Assembly: GCA_963930775.1 (NCBI GenBank)
Contig: OZ005689.1
Coordinates: forward strand, 29,527,079-29,591,078
From: Cliona cf. orientalis
Taxonomy: Eukaryota > Porifera > Demospongiae > Clionaida > Clionaidae
DNA length: 64,000 nucleotides
Direction: 5' to 3'
The notes beneath the pieces were generated by a model. That model saw nothing but the letters and a program-made list of their open reading frames with translations. It was not told the origin of the DNA and did not search any database. The stretch's first letter is position 1; the number at the start of each line of letters is the position of its first letter. The translations under genes were made by a program, and so were the position numbers. Below, one piece after another: positions 5,817 through 56,624 of this stretch.

Positions 5817-6572
5817 TTACTCTCCCCACCACTCTATATTACGCAGACGTTCAGGCTCTTCAATCTTAAACTGATCTAAAGCGTAAAGCTTCATAGTAGT
5901 CCGTGCATCTTCTATCGCGCTATGATCACCCTGTTGGACTTCTTCATGCAGTAGATGCAATGCTAGCGTTTTAAGGCTATAATCATGGCTAGGCTCTCCA
6001 AGGGGAGGAAGATGGAATCCCCGCACACTAAAGTCATGCTCACGCGCCCTTTGCTTTTGGATATCTATGATTACCTGATCAGGCAGATCTACCTCGTCGC
6101 TGATTCTCAGGCATGTGAAATCATTTCTAATGGCATGACCTATGACAAATTTACACCTACGAAGAAGTCCCAACACGTGACTACGAACATGCTCAAAGTC
6201 TGTACCATTACAGCCTCTGGCGATAGCAAACTGCTGATCAGTTACAGGGCAGTACTTCCTAGACCAACTGTTGAGGCGACAACCTCCAGGAGGAGGTACA
6301 TACACCTCATACAGGGAGACACCGTTAATGTCCACGATACCTACCGAAGCAAGACGGGTCCTATTCGAACTAATGCTCGCCTCAACCATGACCATCTCGC
6401 AATCGAGAGCAAGGCATCTGAACTCATAGGACTCGTCATGCTCTAAGTATGGCGTTGGCAGAAGATGTGACCGTTGAGAGGAATCCTCCCTGGACCCGGC
6501 CTTCTCTCTCTTCTTCTGGTTTCTCCTCCTCCTGGCTTCCACGCTCCTCTTCTTCTTTGGAGTCGCTGACAT
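5817..6572 (-). CDS. DEDDh 3'-5' exonuclease, REXO4/ISG20-like
   Basis: The predicted protein is a ribonuclease H-fold exonuclease of the REXO4/ISG20 type; family members trim RNA ends in the nucleus or nucleolus. Numbered from the upstream ATG at 6656, the five DEDDh residues are visible: D85 and E87 in LALDCEMV, D179 in VIGHAIRNDF, and H245 and D250 in DHSAIEDARTTM. The start is set at 6572 (residue 29 of the longer frame). The bases just before it form a strong 3' splice site (a T-run ending in ccag), with a GT donor at 6631, which suggests a 58-bp 5'-UTR intron at 6574-6631. From this start the protein is about 251 residues and opens with a very basic stretch (PKKKRSVEARRRRNQKKR), a likely nuclear or nucleolar signal. 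It ends NIEWWGE. The coding frame is otherwise intronless. The specific paralogue (REXO4, ISG20 or ISG20L2) cannot be settled by eye. Confidence 0.9.
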   Translation of the reverse strand: MSATPKKKRSVEARRRRNQKKREKAGSREDSSQRSHLLPTPYLEHDESYEFRCLALDCEMVMVEASISSNRTRLASVGIVDINGVSLYEVYVPPPGGCRLNSWSRKYCPVTDQQFAIARGCNGTDFEHVRSHVLGLLRRCKFVIGHAIRNDFTCLRISDEVDLPDQVIIDIQKQRAREHDFSVRGFHLPPLGEPSHDYSLKTLALHLLHEEVQQGDHSAIEDARTTMKLYALDQFKIEEPERLRNIEWWGE

Positions 6573-6656
6573 TCTGGAAAAAAAAAACGAGAGATAGTGC
6601 GAAATTTCACTGAACTGACGAAACAGCTGACCTTGTTGCAATTGAGAAGTTGACAC

Positions 6657-7213: not shown

Positions 7214-7215
7214 TA

Positions 7216-7285
7216 CAGTAGTTTGCAAGTTGGTTGTCTCAGCAGTTGAGAAATAGTGATGCGTGTGGTTTGTTCTTGAGTAAAC
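7216..7285 (+). repeat. Left terminal inverted repeat of the 7.2-kb element
   Basis: Seventy bases pairing with 9754-9823 inverted. The first 29 bases differ at one position; bases 31-49 carry most of the mismatches; the inner part (tggtttgt, cttgagtaaac) matches again. Conserved inner blocks are typical transposase-binding positions in this superfamily. Confidence 0.9.
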
Positions 7286-7517
7286 TATTCAGTGCAGGCA
7301 TCTGCAAGCATAGTATAAACACTCTACCCACAGTCTAGTATAGTACTATAGTACATACATTAGTGACAACAGGCAGGAAATAGTGAACACGTGTTCATAC
7401 AATGCCAAACACGTGATATCCGTTGATAGCTAAGCCCGCACGCGCAATTGTTGGAGCTGAGTGTCTCTGATCGTGCTGCATGTAGCTACCTAGTGGCTAG
7501 GCTACCTACTTCTAGAG

Positions 7518-8546
7518 ATGTCTCAACACTACTACGCTGTGAATAATCCGTGCTGGATGTACTATGGCCATCATGATCAGCCACAAATGCAACCGCCGCC
7601 GTATGTACCTGGTCAAAGTAACTATCAAGATCCAGTGGCACAAGCACAAGCTGAGCCAGCTGCCAGGAGTCCTGAATTTTACCAATCGACCAGCGGACCA
7701 CGTGACAACTACTCCACATACACTGTAAGTGTAAAAGTATTGAGCCCCTCGAATAAAAAGGATTTTAAAATGTATACGCTAAGAAATGTGGAGCTGAGTG
7801 TCATGAAGAGGCCTGATGATATCAAAAATGAAAATTTGGAGCAAATAGGTGGTCAGGTGGTGTCAGAATCACTTGAGTTTGACTTGGGCTATTACACGGG
7901 AAAGGAGAAAAAGTGGATCAATAATCAGGATGATGCTTGTGATGCTTTAGATATCCTAAAATCACAAAACAAGCTCACCCTATGGTGCACTGGAGTTCTA
8001 GAAAAAGAAAAAAGAAAGAGGGACCGTAGCGGATCAGAGTCAGATGATAACGCAACTGATACTGACACCAGAAACCCAAAACGCTCCAAGCAGAAGCATA
8101 CATCTGCTATTAAAGCAAAGGAGGCAGAACGTGACAGTATCGTTAGCGAGCTGCGTGAACGCCATGGGACTACCTACTCGGCTGTGCAGTACCATTTGTG
8201 GGCGGAAATGAAGATGGGCCACACATGGGACAGCCTTGAAAAGCATCCCCCTTACCCTATGTTTGGTGAAAAGAGGCACAAAGGACACTCTGCTTCTGGA
8301 GAACTAAATGAAGCCTTGACCGGTTTGGCCAAATCAATTGTAGGCTATCTTTCCCTGCAACCAAACACTAACCGTGTGACCTCTACCTCATGTGCAACGC
8401 TATCACCAGCAAAAACAGCTCAGCTTCGAAGTAAATACATGGAGCAACTATCTGATTTGGTGAAATTACGAGAAATTGGAGCTTTGACAAATGAAGAATA
8501 CGACGAACAGCGTCAAGTTATTGTTGACTCAATGAGAAAATTATAG
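7518..8546 (+). CDS. Passenger protein: PB1/ubiquitin-like fold plus SHOCT-like tail
   Basis: An intact 342-residue single-exon frame inside the transposon. Visible layout: a Q/P-rich tail (1-65); a beta-rich region at about 66-160 (YTVSVKVLSP... to LTLWCTGV) resembling PB1 or ubiquitin-like domains; a basic/acidic linker with nuclear-signal-like clusters (KEKRKRDR, NPKRSKQK; 162-195); a conserved-looking block at about 205-250 (ELRERHG, HLWAEMKMG, PPYPMFGEKR); and a C-terminal helix pair at about 300-340 (LVKLREIGALTNEEYDEQR) matching the short SHOCT pattern. No transposase or nuclease motif is seen. Its stop lies 46 bp from that of the opposing transposase. The frame has no lesion although the transposase has three. 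Domain names are my recognition, not search results. The function is unknown; a DNA- or protein-binding accessory role is a guess. Confidence 0.75.
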   Translation: MSQHYYAVNNPCWMYYGHHDQPQMQPPPYVPGQSNYQDPVAQAQAEPAARSPEFYQSTSGPRDNYSTYTVSVKVLSPSNKKDFKMYTLRNVELSVMKRPDDIKNENLEQIGGQVVSESLEFDLGYYTGKEKKWINNQDDACDALDILKSQNKLTLWCTGVLEKEKRKRDRSGSESDDNATDTDTRNPKRSKQKHTSAIKAKEAERDSIVSELRERHGTTYSAVQYHLWAEMKMGHTWDSLEKHPPYPMFGEKRHKGHSASGELNEALTGLAKSIVGYLSLQPNTNRVTSTSCATLSPAKTAQLRSKYMEQLSDLVKLREIGALTNEEYDEQRQVIVDSMRKL

Positions 8547-8592
8547 ACATTGCAATTGGAACAAAAACAAAACAATGATACTGTGAGTGCAA

Positions 8593-9557
8593 TTAATGCA
8601 TGTAACCACTATGTCTTATGTAATTTATGCAATCATCTTTGGTAATTGTACAAAAGCCATTAATACAACAGTGCATGGGGAGTGGATGCTCAAATATACA
8701 GTGTCATTTGCCCTCAAGAAAGCTTTGACTTTTGAAAATACATTTTCAATAGGGTTTAGTTCAGGGGAATATGGGGGAAGAAAGCGCACAATTGAACCAA
8801 CTCCAGTTATGATGTCTGCTACTTCTTCATAGTGGTGAACGGAAGCGTTGTCCATTACAACTACTGAATGACTATTAGTTCCATTAAAGGGTTCCAAGAT
8901 GGGTAGCAGACAATTTCAAACAAATTTAACAAATATTTCACCAGTAACATTTCCTTCTACAATATACACATCTTCCATCCCCTCTGTTGACATGGCTCCA
9001 ATGGCATTGATCCTTTGACCAGAAACCCTAAGCTCATGTGAAACTGCACGCATTCCTTTTAAACTATAACCATACGATCTCACAGAATTTCTCCGTGCTG
9101 ATCCAGTCTCATCAACCCAAATAATCATTTCTGGATCAAACATTGAGATTTCAGCCATGAACTGAAGTTGAAGCTCCTCACTACATTGAAGAGCAATCCT
9201 TTGCACCTTCTTTCTAGTTAGCCCAAGATGTTGTACAGTACGACAAATGGTAGAGACATGTACCCATGTACCTGTAAGCTCGTAGAGCTCAGATTGAAGT
9301 TCCTCTAGGTACATTGTTGGCTTATTGACCAGGGATTGAAGTAGGGATATTTGTTCAAATTCACTCAATACACGTGGAGGCCCATGACGCTGTTTGCTAG
9401 GTTCTACAGTGCCAGTTGATTGATACAGAGCTATGTATCTGTCCACTGACCTCTTAGACATGAAAAGGAGGTCAGCTATCTCATATCTGCTCCTGCCACA
9501 TATGAGATGAAGTCAAACAGCTCTCCATCTAAGATCCACAGAGTATCCAACTGGCAT
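8593..9557 (-). pseudogene. Tc1/mariner DD34E transposase, decayed
   Basis: The frame runs from ATG at 9557 (MPVGYSVDLRWRAV) to a tail reading ITKDDCINYIRHSGYMH and a stop at 8593. An N-terminal helix-turn-helix region (SRYEIADLLFMSKRSVDRYI, then a GPP-R stretch) is followed by the catalytic set: D in IIWVDETGS, D in VVVMDNASVHH and E in SPELNPIENVFSKVK, with 34 residues between the last two (DD34E). There are three lesions: two in-frame TGA codons (one just after LRWRAV, one between the first and second catalytic blocks, after IFVKFV) and a frameshift near 8650. Each TGA could be a single base change from a TGG or CGA codon. A dead gene is therefore likely, unless another copy acts in trans. 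Confidence 0.9.
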
Positions 9558-9753
9558 TGTATTAAACACACAACCTACTGCAGCAACATTCAAATTTGAA
9601 CTTGGCGCGCGTATGGCAACATACGCGTGCACTACAGGGCACTAGTGCAGTACAGTACAGTATTACATATCAAACATGCACTGCACCTGCAGTGGCTAGA
9701 CAATGTATGTTTACATGGTGTGGTACCCAGTTATGCTGTGCATGCTCAGCAGT

Positions 9754-9823
9754 GTTTACTCAAGTACAAACCACATGGATCAGGCTCTCTCTATTGCTGA
9801 GACAACCAACTTGCAAACTGCTG
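9754..9823 (-). repeat. Right terminal inverted repeat of the 7.2-kb element
   Basis: Inverse partner of 7216-7285. It ends exactly at the TA dinucleotide 9824-9825. Confidence 0.9.
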
Positions 9824-9849
9824 TATTACCATGCTAGCAGCTACATACC

Positions 9850-10196
9850 TAGCCTCGTCCCCAGGCTCTCTTGGGGGAGGGGAAAAGAGAGCCTGGTAAC
9901 GACTGCATGCGCATGCGCGAACCCTTACCAACAAAACATGGTAAGGCAGTTTTCACAGCTAAACGGCCTTTCGAGGGGACACGTTTGAGTGATTTACGTA
10001 CCACATTTAAGCCTCCTAGACACCACCACTAGCCAATAGCAAGATACTTTTCGAGTGCTTGGGCGACTTTTGAGCTTGATTGGTAGTATACGATCAAGTA
10101 GTCCACGGATAGTATACGGAGATTTTGGCGCATGCGCATGCAGTCGTTACTAGGCTCTCTTTTCCCCTCCCCTAAGAGAGCCTGGGGATGAGGCTA
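9850..10196. mobile_element. MITE, 9-bp target duplication (Mutator-like)
   Basis: A 347-bp palindrome-like element starting TAGCCTCGTCCCCAGG and ending with the near-inverse CCTGGGGATGAGGCTA. It is flanked by ctacatacc on both sides (9841-9849, 10197-10205), a 9-bp duplication as used by Mutator-like elements. The arms include long gcgcatgcgc palindromes. The termini match those at 29287-29609 (TAGTCTCGTGCCCAG). It sits 24 bp to the right of the Tc1-type element. Confidence 0.8.
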
Positions 10197-32174: not shown

Positions 32175-35100
32175 TTAACTCTTGCTCAACCTTTTACGTT
32201 TTGGGAGAGGGTTATCATCCAGGTGCAATGGCTCAGATTTTCTCTTCCCACTACAGTTACCTCTGAGAGGTTCAAGGGCAGCTGAACCTTGTACTCGTAA
32301 ACTCACAGCCCTTGTAACGCTGCTTTCCATTCAAGTGGGTCCCGACAAAACTTCTCACTTAGCAAAAATTGAACACCTGGTACCGCAAAAAGTAGAGTTG
32401 TCACTTCAACAAATGAGAGTACTGCATAATGCAGATCATAAAAATTTAATAGTATCATAATAATTGACTAGAATCATACCTGTTACCCTCAGTCCTTCCA
32501 GAGTTTCCCGTGATAATTGCATCATTTGCTTCTGACCTGGTGTGAACCCTTGTCGTCCTTTCACACTCTCATTCCAGCGATCCAAGTAACCCAGGAAGTC
32601 ATCTTTTAGCCACTATAGTGTTGTGTATAATAATATCCGTTCAGAGACTCATATGATAATATGATGCATGTTCACAAACCTTTAACCTGGGATCATCCGG
32701 ACTTCTGTAAGGTCTTAAATCTGGTTTTCATCGCTGCACACAAGCTGATATGCAGCGTACGTTGAGGCAATCGAAGAATTTATCAAACATGCGTATAAAG
32801 GTCTCTGTTTCCTTCGTCTCTTCTAAGCCATAGAAATCTAGGCCATTTGCCACAGAGGTACTTAGTACCTTTGAGAAATAGAATAAATTGACAAGTGTAT
32901 CTTCATAATAATATTATTATTATTACCTGAGCTGCCAAATTGACTTTCATTCTTGAATATGAGTTTAAGTGCAGGTGCTCCTTTTTCAACTTCGGAATTA
33001 AACTGAGGCCAGAACCAAAGCGACTTTTGTCGTACAAGGAAGTGAGATGAGTCCAGCTGATATGCTTTCCATCCTTCTGTACATCATTGCATACAAAATA
33101 ATTAGTCGGTTATCAGAGGAAGAGGAATTTTTTTTTATTTTGGGGGGGGGGGGGGGGGGGGGGAGGGGAATGGGGATTGGATGAGCGGCGCTACTTATTT
33201 ATTTATAGAATTTCTACATTAGTTTCGACCTTCCTCTATGTTTGGAATTAAGTTAACATATTTCAGGCTTGTTGGGTGGAGGTGTGCCCCTGTTACCACA
33301 CCTAGACTATCATTCATGCTGTACCTACGTCACTAACCCAGAGAGCTCTTGAGTGACTGTGGCCAAAAGAATTCGACCAACAATTCCGAGTTGTCTTGAT
33401 GAGATGTGGTACGTCTGACATGAAGTAAATTTCTCTGCCGTCTGGACTGTATGGGTTTCTGGTTTTGTTCCTGTTTGTTTTGATGTGCTATGCATCTTAA
33501 AGAATTTTCTATTGGGAGATGCTCCATCACATGTAATAACCATCATGTTAAAGCCACTCTCCTCCAAATTTCTCACACCATCCCACACGAGTGGAAATAG
33601 CTCCTCGCCTGTGGCTCCTTTTGTGGGGAAATGGGCATAGGGAAACTCAAGTCCTGAGAAAATTCCCCTGACCATGAACACCAGCATATGTGAAGCAACT
33701 TTGTCGGCTGTGTCATTGCTTTCACCTTTGCACTGTCGTTCAAAGTCATCAAGTGTATTAGATACATCTCCTAAATCAGTAAAACCGAGTAATGAGCAGG
33801 AGTGTTTATCGAAAACTAAGTCTTCTCGAATTTTCATCTCATCAAAGCTGAGAACCACATACTTATCCTTCTCATCTTTAATGTTTGCTTCTTCAATGAG
33901 CTGTGCATTCACTGCGGTATGGAAACCTACATCTCCGTTATTCCAGTGGGAATAATCGAATAATGTTCTTTCAGATGGTAGAGTAAGAACACCGGTACTC
34001 CTCAATGCATGGTAGGCACCTGTTGACTTGAACTTCAGGTGCAGGCACCACTTTATGAGTGCTGGATGCCAGCGAATTTGTCGGTGATCTTTCATCTGCA
34101 TTGCTTCAAGCTGAGATTCCCAAAATATGCGTCGGAATGAATCATCTGAATGCTGATCTCTGACTTTATTGGTCATCTCATTCATTATGGACTGTAGATC
34201 ATGATGCATACCTTCATCCAATTGAACTCCATCTTTGTCTGTCAACTTGTCCAACATTCTTTTCACTCTTCTTTCAGCCGTATCCGAACGAACTTTCAGC
34301 TTGCGGTAGCGCTGTTGTCTTTGAGGGGTGTCCAGATATCTTAGCTAGGTTGGTATGGCTAGTAGATGCAGTATTTCTGCATGGTGAGGTATTGATCTTC
34401 TTCTTCCAGCGGTGAAATGATTTTCTGAGCGTATCTCTGTATTGGACACACTTTGCACACTTGGTATCATTGGTGAGAATTGCACAAGATTTATGCCTAA
34501 CCGTCTGGGTGTATAAATCACCATTTAATTGGACTGGCACAGCTGAGTCAATAGTAGCTACAACTTCTTTATTAATGGAAGTGAGTTTCCCCTTCTTTGA
34601 TATCACCATTTCTACGAATTTCTTGTCTGGATGGCCAGGGCACACCCGGCAGCTATCAAGCTTGGCTACTAACACTTTGAGCGATTCACTGTTGAGCTGA
34701 TGTGGGACGTCCGATAAAGGGGTACATTTGGTGCTGTTCACTTGGTGCCCATGAACAAGTGCCGTCCAAGATAAATCTTCGCTGATGGTGAGGCTGTGTG
34801 TTACAATGCATGCTGCAGAATCAGATTCAATCTGGGGAAACTTAAGCTTGCATAAATGCAAGGACTCAGAGCTGATATTACTGATCCACTGACTCGGTAG
34901 TTGCAAGGAACTTGTGAGAGTTTCGATAGTAGTTATTGTGGTATTGGGACTATTCTCCTGTAATAAATTAAAGCAGGTGATATGCATGATTGATTTAATC
35001 TTTATTTATAGTACCTGCTGTCTAGCTTGGGGTTGTTGCTGGGGTTGGGGTTGGGGCTGGGTCTGGGTACATGGAATCTGAATCTTGGGAGATTGACCAA

Positions 35101-43198: not shown

Positions 43199-43456
43199 TC
43201 ACACTGCGGCACATGATTTACACTTCCAAGGGACATCTTTTTTTTCAAAAACATAGTTAGGAACGTCCATGCAGTGTTTGTGGTACCAGGTTTTAGCGCA
43301 TTCGGCCATTTTATCACCTAATTCCTTGGGCAAGCGGCAGGAGCAGTGAAGGTCCACTGACTGGGTGTGCCTGACACCGACAGTCCTGCGCTCACCGACC
43401 GCTGGGAAGCGAGAGAGGCGACATTTCTCCAAGCTCTCTGCCAAGTGCTGCCTCAT
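43199..43456 (-). pseudogene. PHD-like zinc finger, tail of the Ulp1-MULE protein
   Basis: Reads RQHLAESLEKCRLSRFP, GERRTVGVRHTQSVDLHCSC, MAECAKTWYHKHCMDVPNY, VPWKCKSC. The Cys/His order (C.C...C...H..C...W.C..C) is PHD-like, but the expected second cysteine pair after MAEC is missing, as if two codons were lost. It follows the protease frame with a one-base shift at about 43455. In intact relatives I would expect it to be the C-terminal domain of the same protein. Confidence 0.65.
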
Positions 43457-44493
43457 AGACCTGTGATTGTACTTGATCTTACATGGTCATTACCACTGCA
43501 AATGTCGTATGCAAATGCTAAGGCAAGGACTCCACAATCGGAACCATTTGACTGCCTTCCAACATCCATCATTCTCACTACAAGCTGTTTAGCAGGACTG
43601 AACACAAGGCTGGCAATCAATTTGACCGTCCCACTGGAAGCACTGGAGTACATGCTGTCGTACACATTGACCACTCCATCGTCACATCCAACGTTGGAAA
43701 TAGTACACCAGTGACAGCCTCCAACAAAGATGATCTGCACAAATTCTCCTCTGAGGATTTGGAACGACAGACTCCTGTGAACTGCCGGATCTTGCAGGCC
43801 GGCTATGTTTGGGAATTCCTGCAAGATGAGCAACTGACCGGCCCTAATGACTGTGTCTGAGAGCCAACCATCAGATGAAACAATTTCCCGTTTCTTATCT
43901 ATGTGCAAGGTGTACAGTGGAGTGGACACCCAGGTGTTGCTTACAACTGCAGAACCATCGGCTGAAGACAAGGCTGTGGGATCGTCAGTCAGGTCAAAAA
44001 CATGCTCAACAACATGCTCAACAACAGGCTTGGCTAGGCCACAGTTACACACTTTGAGATTTGCAGAATCATTTGCTACATCTCGTAGTGAGATCCTTCC
44101 TGCAGTTCGCCAGTTGTCTACTGAAATGGATGGATCACCACTGATAGCCGTCAACTGCCCCTTTGCATAGCCAGTAGTGAGAACTCCCTTGTGACAACAT
44201 AGTAGGCATCGATCACCAAACACTTGCACAACGCAGCAAGGAAGGTGACATTTGCCCAATTTGCTATCATGCAAATTCACGCAGTCACCCACCTTGAAGT
44301 CGGGCCTAGGCCTTTTCGCTGGGGGAGGCTTCTCATCACCTGGCTTTTCTCTCTTTCCTCGACGAGTGGACCTCGTATCGACCGGCTTGCTTGCTTTAGG
44401 AGGTTTGGATTTCACACAAGCATCATCCTTGCCATTCTTGTCAGAGTCAGCAGAAGAGGCCTTGGGAAACAATGTGCACCCAACGTAAAGATT
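43453..44493 (-). pseudogene. Ulp1/SENP-type (C48) cysteine protease domain
   Basis: Continues in frame from the transposase at 44494 after one TGA (AHKRDCPSNS, stop, NLYVGCT). It begins with a basic, low-complexity stretch (RSTRRGKREKPGDEKPPPAK), then VGDCVNLHDSKLGKCHLPCC and the C48 catalytic set. Counting from the TTG at 44472 these are H254 in GGCHWCTISN, D272 in VNVYDSMYS, Q307 and C313 in RQSNGSDCGVLALAF. All four residues are present. In this family Ulp1 proteases cleave SUMO or related modifiers; some plant MULEs also carry such a domain. The TGA could be a CGA (Arg) change, since SSR would fit the join. Confidence 0.75.
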
Positions 44494-46629
44494 TCATGAG
44501 TTTGAGGGGCAATCCCTCTTGTGTGCTCGTCCGAGCGCTCCGCACACGCAGATACCACTTATTACGTCATCTTCAAAACACCAACTAGTGTCACCAGTTG
44601 GGGTAGGCATACTTTTTTCCAAAGAAATGCTTTCTGCGTCTGACAGGGTATCCTCAGAATAGGAAATGACATCAGTATCGTCAGATGCTCTGTCATCCAC
44701 AGAAACACCACTTCTCTGATTTTTTATGTTCAAAGGACATTCACTATGGTTGGTACGTAGGTGAGTGGTGGACCCACACTTGCACGTCCCTCCAGTTGTA
44801 TGCTTCTTCTGTCCTTTTCGTTTGAGTTCATCTTCGTCTATGTCACTGTCGTCACTGCCATAGGTATCGTGGCCATGCTTCTTTGACCACAGCTTGCGAC
44901 ACTGTGCATCCACTGTTCGCTCACTTTTCAACTGCATTCGCCTCCGCTTGGAGAAATCGGTCTTTTCGTGATCTAAGTACATCATTCTCTGTCGATTGAA
45001 TGTCTCCAGATCAGCCTGAACATCATCAAACACAGGTAGCTTCAGACGCTCAAACAGCTCAACTACCCAATGATATTGTGGCCCACGTTTCTTATACATG
45101 TATGTCATGTTGGATTGCAGCAGAGCCAGCTCGGTTGAAACCACATAGTGTAGCCTCTTGAGGAAGATGTGCTTTGGTCTGAAGCGAATGAACACATTGT
45201 GGGAGGCCTCCAACCAATTGGAATGCCCCCTTTTAAGAATGGGGTGAACCAGCTGTTCGGCTATTTCTGCTCTCTCATGGCATTCAATTTCGTAAGCCAG
45301 AGAGTGGAAAGGACATGTCAGTGCATGCCTTGTGTGATAGTCTGTTCCTTCGCACTTCAAATCCTCTCCATCCTCACACTCGCCACAGCTGCATACTCGA
45401 AGTTGGTGAAAGTCACACCTACCAAACCCCCAATCGTGCTCGTTGCGGGCATGTCTGGCCAATCCTTTCATCCTGGTCGCAAACTCTTCGGCAGATTCAC
45501 TCATCGACAAAATTCGAAAAGTAGTTTCTAGCCTTTTCAATGAACGCCTTGGAGAAGCAACCACATCCCTGTTTGTGCCTTGAGCAATGACAGACCACGT
45601 CGCCAACAGAGGGAAAAGTGTCTTTATACTTTCTTATTAAATCAACAGTGAAGGACTTGATTTTCTGCAGCTTTTCCAGCTGCTTCTTGTGGGCCCTACC
45701 GGCATGCCCACCACAGATCATGATCTCTGCATTGGGAAAGTGGTCTGTCACTGCCTTAGCAGAGGAGTCGGCATCTTGCCACTGAATGGCAATGTTCATT
45801 CCTTCGTCCTTGGCTTTTTTGAACGTAAGGCGTGCGGCATAGCCTTCGGCACCCTTGGAGGTCCCCTGGTAGAGCTCTTCTTTAATTATGTCATCTCTGC
45901 CTTTCTGATAGAGATGCTTGCGGTAAAGAAGAGCTCCATTGTAGTAGTTTCGAATGCTGAAAGTAGCATTATTGCTGTGATGACCACGTGTCATCCACGT
46001 GCCGTCAGCGGACGTAACGGCACGACTCCACGAACCCAGTTCATTTTGGTCCATGCGTTGCATGTCATCCTTTGCATCACTGCACATCTTATCGACCATC
46101 TCTTTGACAATAGGGTACATTCTCTTGATGGTCGAGTCAAACATTGGCCAACTAACTCCTTCAATCCCAAGTGCATGCTTCAATACCTTGTAATAAGTCA
46201 CATGCGTGCAACCAGCTATGATAAAAGCCACCTGCGCAGCAATACTAATTTCGGTAGCACAGCCAAGTTCGTATTTAGATGATGTTTCAAACAATGCCCA
46301 CTGACTAGCACAACCGTTACAAGCATAGGTGATAGAAAGAGCACCACCCGGCCCAAGGCTTTTCACATGAATGGGACACAATGCACCTTTACAACCAGGT
46401 GTGGCACAAGAACGTATTTGATTCACTTGCTTAATGAACTTGTTCAATTGTTTCAAGTCCATGAAGCAAATATTTGATGGAATACACGACGTATTTTCTA
46501 TCCTCTCTCTAACCTTTCTTTGAGGGGTTGGAACATACAGGGAGCCATCATTGTCACGTTGAGACTGTCAGTCTCTTCATCACCCTCCACTGTCACATTG
46601 AGACTATCATTATTTGATGTGGGAGTATC
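44494..46629 (-). pseudogene. Mutator-like transposase region
   Basis: An exon starts at about 46629 (acceptor catttag), reads NDGSLYVPTPQRKVRERIEN and runs into MDLKQLNKFIKQVNQIRSC. The catalytic part has AVTSADGTWMTRGHHSNN (first D), IAIQWQDADSSAKAV (second D) and ICGGHAGRAHKKQLEK. A CHCSRHKQGCGCFSKAF zinc knuckle follows. The frame then shifts at about 45525 into RILSMSESAEEFATRMKGLA, HSNWLEASHNVFIRFRPKHI, LQSNMTYMYKKRGPQYHW, a CKCGS...C motif and AHKRDCP. DGTW and the QDAD spacing fit MULE/Mutator-like transposases. There are at least two frameshifts plus the TGA at 44494. TIRs were not identified. Confidence 0.75.
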
Positions 46630-54000: not shown

Positions 54001-54914
54001 TATTTGTTTGCGTGTCATAATAATATTATGTCTTGTACATCTGGAACCAAAGTTGAAAAAACATTTCACCACGCTCTTTTTCCGATCTGCGTATGAGTAC
54101 GAGAATATGCAATCAGGTACTTTGGGAAACTTCCGTTCTGTTTGTATACATATCAGGAGGAGGAGGAAGGATCAGATTCTGGTGTTGCGCCCATACTGGA
54201 GTTGTACCAGTGCTTAGCTGCTATGCTTGTGTGCAAACCTCACTTGTGAGATGTAGTCTAGTAGCCTAGCAAGCCCTGTAAAAATTGGTGATGACGTGGA
54301 GCAATCTGATTGAGCTCCACTCCTGGCTGCAGCAGGTACTAGTCTCGTATACATAGGCATAACACCAGAGCCTTCCTCCTCCCCAGTCATAACAATACAA
54401 ACCTAGCGTTCCAAGCCCAGTAAATCAGGCGACATGCATACAGTTCCACAGTCAGGAAAGGCGAGAAAACTATCAGTACGCCATATTATTATATTATGCT
54501 CACACAAATAGGGATCATCTCACACACGACAGACACAGACACAGACACACACACACACACACACACAAAACTTACCAATTATCTCGGTAGTGCGCAGACG
54601 AAGTTCGCGTGGCACGATGGACGATATGCGCATGCGCAGTTGGACAGGGGAGGGGCTGATGCATGTGTATTTGGAAGGGGTGGGGCTGAAAGCACGACCT
54701 TTGACCTTAAAATTGACGACCAACAGCAGATACCAAACATGTCTCCTACAACGCTAAAAATGCTCAGCAAAGGGTAAGCGGCTAAAAGAGACTTATATCA
54801 GCGCTTCTGGGGCAATTTGGGGATATATCCACCCACTCAATTAGCGTGTACCACTGGATTACTATTGTGTCACATGATTATAGCTCTAAGTGAACATGTC
54901 AACTCCAATAGTTG

Positions 54915-56624
54915 ATGCACAGGCAGAACAACAACATGCTTCGAATACCTGACACTGGTCCTGTGTGTAACGACATGGAAAAAGCTAATATTCTTAATAA
55001 TCAGTTTTTCAGTAACTTCAATCATGCAACCTCCTCACTTAGGGACAGTAGTATCACCTATAACTTTGAAAACCTCAGCCCATCTAATTTTCCTGAGGAA
55101 TTCCTGTGCACAGAGGACAAGATGCTTTCTCTAATCACTTCCCTAGATACTACCAAATCTACGGGAGCAGATGGTGTTTCTGCCAAAATGCTTAAATCCA
55201 CTGCTCCATATATAGCGAAGAGCCTCACCAACCTATTTAATACATCTCTAAAGAGTGGGAAATTTCCCTCTGACTGGAAGGTTGCAAGAATAGTTCCAAT
55301 TCCAAAAGGAGGAGACCCTGAAAATCCAGGAAACTATAGACCAATATCTATTTTACCTGTTCTGAGCATACTTCTGGAAAAACACCTGCATGATCTCTTA
55401 TCTCGCCACTTAAACATGTACTCTCCGTTATCACAACATCAATGGGGCTTTACTTCGGGGAAATCAACAACCTCAGCCCTCACCTCCTTCACTCACGACT
55501 GCCAGGAAGCTCTTGATTGTGGGAACGAGGTTTGCTCAGTGTTTTTCGATCTAAGTAAAGCTTTCGATACTGTCCCCCATCAGCAACTTTTACACAAACT
55601 TTCTAAACTTCATGTCGATCCCTTTCTCATAAGATGGGTCAGCAATTATCTAGCCGACAGAACCCAGACAGTTGTATTAGGAGGAGCTCAATCTACCTCT
55701 TTACCTGTGGTATCTGGTGTCCCACAAGGGTCAGTGCTTGGGCCACTGCTCTTCTTGATATACATTAATGGTGTCTCTGCCTCTGCAACGGACTGCAAGA
55801 TTACTATATATGCTGACGATATTGCTCTTTACAAAATCATTAGAAATCCTAGGGACTACACGTTGCTGCAGGGAGACATTACTTCAATATGCAACTGGAT
55901 AGTGGACAATCATCTTATCTTGAATTTCTTGAAATGTTGTTATATGATCTTCTCTAGAAAGCATCATCCATCCCTGCCAGATTCTCCACTCTATGTCGGA
56001 GAAAATCATGCTCTCAATAAAACAGATCATTTCAAATACCTCGGTGTCAACTTCTCAACTGATCTTACCTGGTCACACCACATTAATGCAGTATGTAAGA
56101 AAACACGAAAACAAATAGGATTGCTCTATAGGAACTTTTACCAATTCTCTGATCCCTCAACACTTTTAAAATTATACAAGTCGTTAATTCGCCCCCACAT
56201 GGAATATGCTAGTGTAGTCTGGGACCCTCATCTTGCAAAAGATATCAAGTTGATAGAAGATGTACAAAAATTTGCACTGAGAGTATGTTCAAAAACCTGG
56301 AACGCAGATTACGAGTCACTTCTGAAGTCATGTAACTTACCTTCGCTATCAGACAGAAGAAAATTTCAAAAGCTCTGCCAACTGTATAACATCTTAACTG
56401 ACAGGGTCACCTACCCTGATAAACCACTTGAAAGGATAGCTACCCTCTATCCCAATCGTCATGCTAACACCATTCAGCTATCTGTACCGTTCGCTAGAAC
56501 AAATAATTTCAAAAATTCATTCTTCCCTTCAACTGCTACCCTGTGGAACTCATTAAATTGTGATATCAGCCCCATTAATTCTCTGGCATCATTTAGGCAT
56601 GCATTAAATAAACATCTCTTTTAG
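54915..56624 (+). CDS. LINE reverse transcriptase (Jockey/CR1/L2-like), open
   Basis: Open for 569 codons with no lesion. Reverse-transcriptase motifs in order (residues numbered from the in-frame TTG at 54912): VPIPKGG and NYRPISILPV (about 128-150), QWGFTSGKSTTSAL (about 177), FFDLSKAFDTVPH (motif A, 211-219), VSGVPQGSVLGPLL (about 268-280), IYADDIALY (catalytic YADD, 300-303), HFKYLGVNFSTDLTW, RPHMEYASVVWDP. The motif set matches Jockey-superfamily LINEs (CR1/L2/Crack-like) with no RNase H. The first seven codons (to NNN) come from the host repeat and not from the LINE, so the ORF start is chimeric. Whether it is expressed is unknown; the intact frame suggests a recent insertion. Confidence 0.85.
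   Translation: MHRQNNNMLRIPDTGPVCNDMEKANILNNQFFSNFNHATSSLRDSSITYNFENLSPSNFPEEFLCTEDKMLSLITSLDTTKSTGADGVSAKMLKSTAPYIAKSLTNLFNTSLKSGKFPSDWKVARIVPIPKGGDPENPGNYRPISILPVLSILLEKHLHDLLSRHLNMYSPLSQHQWGFTSGKSTTSALTSFTHDCQEALDCGNEVCSVFFDLSKAFDTVPHQQLLHKLSKLHVDPFLIRWVSNYLADRTQTVVLGGAQSTSLPVVSGVPQGSVLGPLLFLIYINGVSASATDCKITIYADDIALYKIIRNPRDYTLLQGDITSICNWIVDNHLILNFLKCCYMIFSRKHHPSLPDSPLYVGENHALNKTDHFKYLGVNFSTDLTWSHHINAVCKKTRKQIGLLYRNFYQFSDPSTLLKLYKSLIRPHMEYASVVWDPHLAKDIKLIEDVQKFALRVCSKTWNADYESLLKSCNLPSLSDRRKFQKLCQLYNILTDRVTYPDKPLERIATLYPNRHANTIQLSVPFARTNNFKNSFFPSTATLWNSLNCDISPINSLASFRHALNKHLF

Follow-up and report, generated by a model that had tools for sequence, protein, structure and literature searches.

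Tc1/mariner transposons are the textbook case of self-sufficient one-gene transposons and underlie gene-transfer tools. For Tc1 elements, a length of about 1300 bp and a single transposase ORF are described, while the ciliate TBE and Tec elements are of the ITm type and have extra ORFs, namely a zinc-finger protein and a small ORF in TBE and a site-specific recombinase in Tec (PMC7325037). In the passages considered, no PB1 or SHOCT protein is named for TBE or Tec, and only transposase ORFs are described for the HvSm family of Hydra and Schmidtea, characterized by DD34E, TA and lengths up to 2751 bp (PMC7325037). In PIF/Harbinger elements, transposition requires ORF1, and in zebrafish Harbinger3 the transposase also depends on ORF1 to localise to the nucleus; the Harbinger transposase is without an obvious DNA-binding domain and ORF1 is Myb-like (PMC2836001, PMC3158080). 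Harbinger provides the model of an element with two proteins (PMC2836001), though the families differ. In plants, the MUSTANG-B proteins are domesticated MULE transposases with PB1 within the host protein, a domain called usually not associated with TEs (PMC8616336); they are the only link between PB1 and transposons found in the literature searched. In the same literature, we found no description of a Tc1/mariner transposase paired with a PB1-SHOCT companion. The terms 'two ORF' and 'extra ORF' are absent from PMC7386202, 'ORF2' and 'two ORFs' from PMC8533490, and PB1 and SHOCT from the main text of a survey, covering Amphimedon among others, of transcription factors derived from transposons (PMC10027918).

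The locus analyzed here lies in a 64,000-nucleotide stretch of the genome of the sponge Cliona cf. orientalis (the window; contig OZ005689.1). On balance, we read it as a decayed member of a large family of IS630-Tc1-mariner-type transposons with two genes, the second of which, referred to as the companion, would help transposition.

The window element and its classification

The two-gene element spans 2612 bp from the TA at 7214 to the TA at 9825, both TA included (Table 1). Its arms (87 nt) are 82% complementary and their outer 72 nt are 86% identical (E 1.9e-21), in agreement with the original prediction of matching inverted repeats of about 70 bp at TA. The plus-strand companion gene and the minus-strand transposase remains converge. 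As also predicted, the former is open throughout and the latter is dead: TGA codons interrupt its frame at 9513-9515 and 8913-8915, and the frame changes near 8650. DDE_3 (Pfam) matches both transposase pieces (E 4e-9 and 8e-17), and the first piece matches HTH profiles (Pfam) below their cut-offs.

Table 1. Features of the two-gene element, in window positions
Feature	Positions	Strand	Basis or remarks
Left terminal inverted repeat (outer 70-85 bp) with its TA target site at 7214-7215	7214..7300	+	
Companion (passenger) gene, 342 codons, without lesion	7518..8546	+	
PB1-fold domain, residues 66-160, strand-strand-helix-strand-strand-helix-strand	7713..7997	+	Structure model, structural matches
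Basic/acidic low-confidence linker, residues 161-187	7998..8078	+	NLS-like K-K/R-X-K/R at residue 165
Central region, residues 188-252: two helices, conserved motif	8079..8273	+	Alignments A1 and A5; helices
C-terminal SHOCT-like helical hairpin, residues 297-342	8406..8543	+	Profile matches, model
DD34E-type transposase remains (HTH and DDE_3)	8596..9557	-	Two in-frame stops and a frame change
Right terminal inverted repeat with its TA target site at 9824-9825	9739..9825	-	

One alternative offered in the original prediction was that the passenger serves the host after insertion while the transposase decays. The 342 codons without lesion beside a transposase with three lesions would fit this, but all three lesions would fall in the transposase by length alone with p 0.11, so the contrast between an intact passenger and a dead transposase says little. 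Among 30 loci examined, only the transposase is broken at three, window included, and the opposite pattern, with only the companion broken, is seen at two. Moreover, the window companion has private residues at three conserved columns (106, 226, and 280), as expected of a decaying copy. Host service of this copy is thus highly improbable and that half of the prediction found no support, whereas the other half, that the passenger is part of the transposon system, is supported.

Among 15 transposases of the family, DDE_3 was found in all 15 and the D-D-E triad in 14, with a spacing of 34 residues from the second D to E (counted in L037). HTH_23 matches 14 of the 15, which thus keep their own HTH region, and the NCBIfam IS630 profile scores 138 bits against a cut-off of 100 in L037, the sole transposase scanned. 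DDE_3, the D-D-E triad with its spacing, TA and the terminal inverted repeats place the family in IS630-Tc1-mariner, an assignment made at group level only. In L050 the third catalytic acid aligns to K although near-identical copies of this element exist; this may be a misalignment, a real change, or a sign that the element moved in trans.

The family shares with Tc1/mariner the TA target, inverted repeats, HTH and DDE_3 regions, and the 34 residues from the second D to E, but its units are mostly 2.5-2.7 kb (2465-2719 bp in 10 of 11 elements measured, 4582 bp in L033) and have a conserved second gene. With two genes and larger units, they fall outside the Tc1 family proper as defined by size and ORF content (about 1300 bp, single ORF), and their two ORFs differ from the three-ORF plan of TBE and Tec. 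HvSm has DD34E, TA and a similar length range, but in the section considered it is described with transposase ORFs only. PIF/Harbinger elements also encode two proteins, but they have another transposase superfamily, a 3-bp target and a Myb-like ORF1, whereas TA ends, DDE_3, an HTH transposase, and a PB1 companion are found here. In MUSTANG-B, PB1 is likewise tied to a transposase lineage, but as part of a host protein and not as a separate mobile-element gene.

Several other features were observed in the window. Directly right of the element, a MITE-like inverted repeat of 72 nt (9850-9921 and 10125-10196, 203 nt apart) is 94% complementary, and an RNase_T exonuclease ORF lies to the left (5817-6656, minus strand). 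A TNP-like RNase H domain at 33325-34266 (minus strand) is what we take to be a P-element/THAP9-like transposase piece. The region 43453-46462 (minus strand) has a Mutator-like transposase ORF (PF20700) near an ORF matching an Ulp1-type C48 peptidase, possibly a MULE carrying a protease, and a reverse transcriptase ORF of 570 codons is found at 54912-56624 (plus strand; RVT_1, E 3.5e-34).

Pairing, mobility and selection of the two genes

As DNA, the 87-nt end matches only the two ends of this copy in the 216.8-Mb genome. At the protein level, the window transposase fragment gave 150 scored matches, itself included, out of 408 candidates, and the 29 sister loci with the best transposase match were examined together with the window. 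A convergent companion relative adjoins the transposase at 27 of the 29; the two loci without their own companion (L024 and L049) both have broken transposases, and the companion found close to L049 is that of an adjacent element. Using an HMM-coverage rule on all 30 loci, both genes were scored intact at 20, only the companion at three, only the transposase at two, and neither at five. The search for sister copies lacking the passenger, proposed in the original prediction, returned none among the 22 loci with an intact transposase, two of which carry the gene broken.

In the wider genome, a pair was defined as a convergent transposase and companion within 3 kb after merging the matches listed. 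A first comparison gave 80 of 120 paired versus about 0.22 expected by chance among the matches listed. With the window included, 112 of 170 transposase loci and 113 of 162 companion loci are paired among the matches listed. Most passengers listed are therefore found beside a transposase and not outside such elements, although the remaining 49 have no transposase among the matches listed, many of them being partial or with stops. Of the listed transposases at least 40% identical to that of the window, 76 of 86 are paired (31 of 32 at 50% or more, 20 of 22 at 45-49%, and 25 of 32 at 40-44%), and below this level the numbers are 20 of 59 at 36-39% and two of five at lower identity. This drop is due, at least in part, to the reach of the companion search. 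For 58 listed transposases, no companion is among the matches listed; the 3' flank was examined in six of them, chosen from the full-length matches, and in every case it holds a convergent companion, open over 261-321 codons (HMM E from 3e-24 to 4e-36); a seventh such transposase, on C3, has a partial companion at the edge of L036 (E 1.3e-17). At C4:5069723-5074056 (G000), two two-gene units form a mirror-image array with the transposases back to back and equal companion match scores.

Near-identical elements (96.3-99.9%) were compared in seven pairs. In six of these the match begins at TA and runs to a TA or to no more than 3 bases from one, and the sequences outside it differ; the alignment of the remaining pair (L050/L051) does not reach the left end. 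Both genes were scored intact in all near-identical elements compared. The companion has thus moved recently together with the ends, and the passenger belongs to the mobile unit, as had been proposed. In six near-identical pairs, the companion shows 22 nonsynonymous changes over 4843 sites and 25 synonymous over 1358 (pN/pS 0.25, p 2.7e-6), and the transposase eight over 4418 and 26 over 1285 (pN/pS 0.09, p 3.8e-11), so that the suggested comparison of synonymous and nonsynonymous change revealed purifying selection on both genes. In gene trees of 15 companion-transposase pairs, each of the six groups with a star in the companion tree also has one in the transposase tree, where an additional group is starred that does not resolve in the companion tree, and the two distance matrices correlate at 0.49 (0 of 5000 permutations). 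Joint movement, joint conservation and purifying selection are shown for both genes, and there is little doubt that they form a two-gene mobile family.

These results also bear on whether the companion is a captured host gene that merely hitchhikes. The 49 of 162 companion loci for which no transposase is listed could be read in this way, and the plant MUSTANG-B proteins are suggested to owe their PB1 domain to capture (PMC8616336). Purifying selection during recent spread, the presence of the companion in all six distant relatives examined, and the co-divergence of companion and transposase argue against it, and as a present state hitchhiking is very improbable.

Profile searches for companion relatives found 38 and 94. 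Those named by organism are an uncharacterized protein of Amphimedon queenslandica (A0A1X7UBP1; E 3.7e-30 against profile A5) and a protein whose contig was assigned to a Nitrosopumilus MAG. This 4.9-kb contig (L059, JACERO010000096.1) carries the companion relative and an open convergent transposase frame of 340 codons (E 1.5e-94), and is probably host DNA misbinned into the MAG. In P0006, a public 267-residue protein, the companion frame runs on into antisense sequence of the transposase end, so that it looks like a copy of different origin with an internal deletion.

Domains of the companion protein

The companion family has a disordered N-terminal tail, a PB1 domain, a basic linker, a central helical motif, and a SHOCT-like hairpin. 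PB1 domains are familiar mainly as parts of scaffolds in signalling and autophagy; type II has a basic lysine and type I an acidic OPCA motif. In the structure model of the window companion, pLDDT by blocks of 10 residues is 82-94 over residues 71-160 and 62 for block 61-70, and the PB1 region has the five-strand, two-helix beta-grasp fold. The model thus supports the PB1-like identity guessed in the original prediction, while the Pfam PB1 profile matches two of the 26 members of alignment A1 with E no higher than 1 (0.011 at best). Strand 1 has a nearly invariant lysine (K73), and the acidic cluster appears reduced by eye. The predicted SHOCT-like partner matches the Pfam profile weakly in the window companion (E 0.0019, 18.3 bits, below the cut-off of 27); in the family, 22 of 26 members of A1 match with E no higher than 1 (1.1e-7 at best) and eight of 11 members of A5 at E up to 0.1. 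In both alignments, the central motif has an invariant H and W, a near-invariant Q, and PP.

In addition to the NLS-like motif in the linker, the window companion has a second K-K/R-X-K/R at residue 188. Four K/R in a row occur in 11 of 16 companions (1.3 when shuffled) versus none of 16 transposases, a set that includes two fragments (the window and L041). In the distant branch, the short motif K-K/R-X-K/R is found in three of six companions and four K/R in a row in none.

Possible roles of the companion

The chances that the companion is a helper of transposition appear about even. In such a helper, the PB1 and hairpin parts would make the protein oligomeric, the basic linker would bring it, together with a transposase bound to it, to the nucleus or to the element ends, and there it would scaffold or tune the cut-and-paste complex. 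The transposase keeps its own HTH domain, so that, unlike in Harbinger, a helper would not be needed for DNA binding. Tc1-like transposases conserve a bipartite nuclear signal (PMC3158080), and by a simple pattern this signal is absent from 16 of 16 transposases here. However, it is also absent from 16 of 16 companions, and the L059 transposase frame does contain a short basic motif; import is therefore only one option and is unlikely to be the main role of the companion.

The companion evolves faster than the transposase (mean pairwise identity 0.29 vs 0.52), its N-terminal tail being the most variable part (identity 0.20, compared with 0.34 in PB1, 0.35 in the central helices, and 0.39 in the hairpin). 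Such divergence could point to a host-facing factor that acts outside the transposition reaction, in anti-silencing or counter-defence, and some Mutator-type elements carry host-facing accessory proteins. Against this, the distant branches sampled keep a companion with the same conserved parts, and no silencing-related domain was recognized in Pfam scans of members of A1 (26; best 25 of 34 families) and A5 (11). We regard a host-facing role as rather unlikely.

The convergent genes end close to each other: with the longest ORF taken for the transposase, the stops are 33-197 nt apart at 15 of 16 loci and 372 nt apart in the window, so that their transcripts could interfere. Together with oligomerizing folds suited to inhibition, this would be compatible with a self-limiting regulator, a PB1/SHOCT oligomer damping transposase activity, but a pure repressor should be hard to keep under purifying selection in spreading selfish copies, and we consider this role distinctly unlikely.

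Returning to the helper, a tentative and less likely extension is that an entire lineage within the Tc1/mariner-type transposons now forms an obligate two-protein system in which the PB1-SHOCT companion polymerizes, imports the transposase, and assembles or gates the synaptic complex. The presence of a second conserved PB1-type gene in a transposon class usually described with a single gene suggests a two-protein mode of transposition. A selected and structurally distinct second gene raises the question of what a single transposase could not do, and provides a testable system in which to ask it. If true, an obligate two-protein lineage would break the rule that Tc1/mariner elements need transposase alone.
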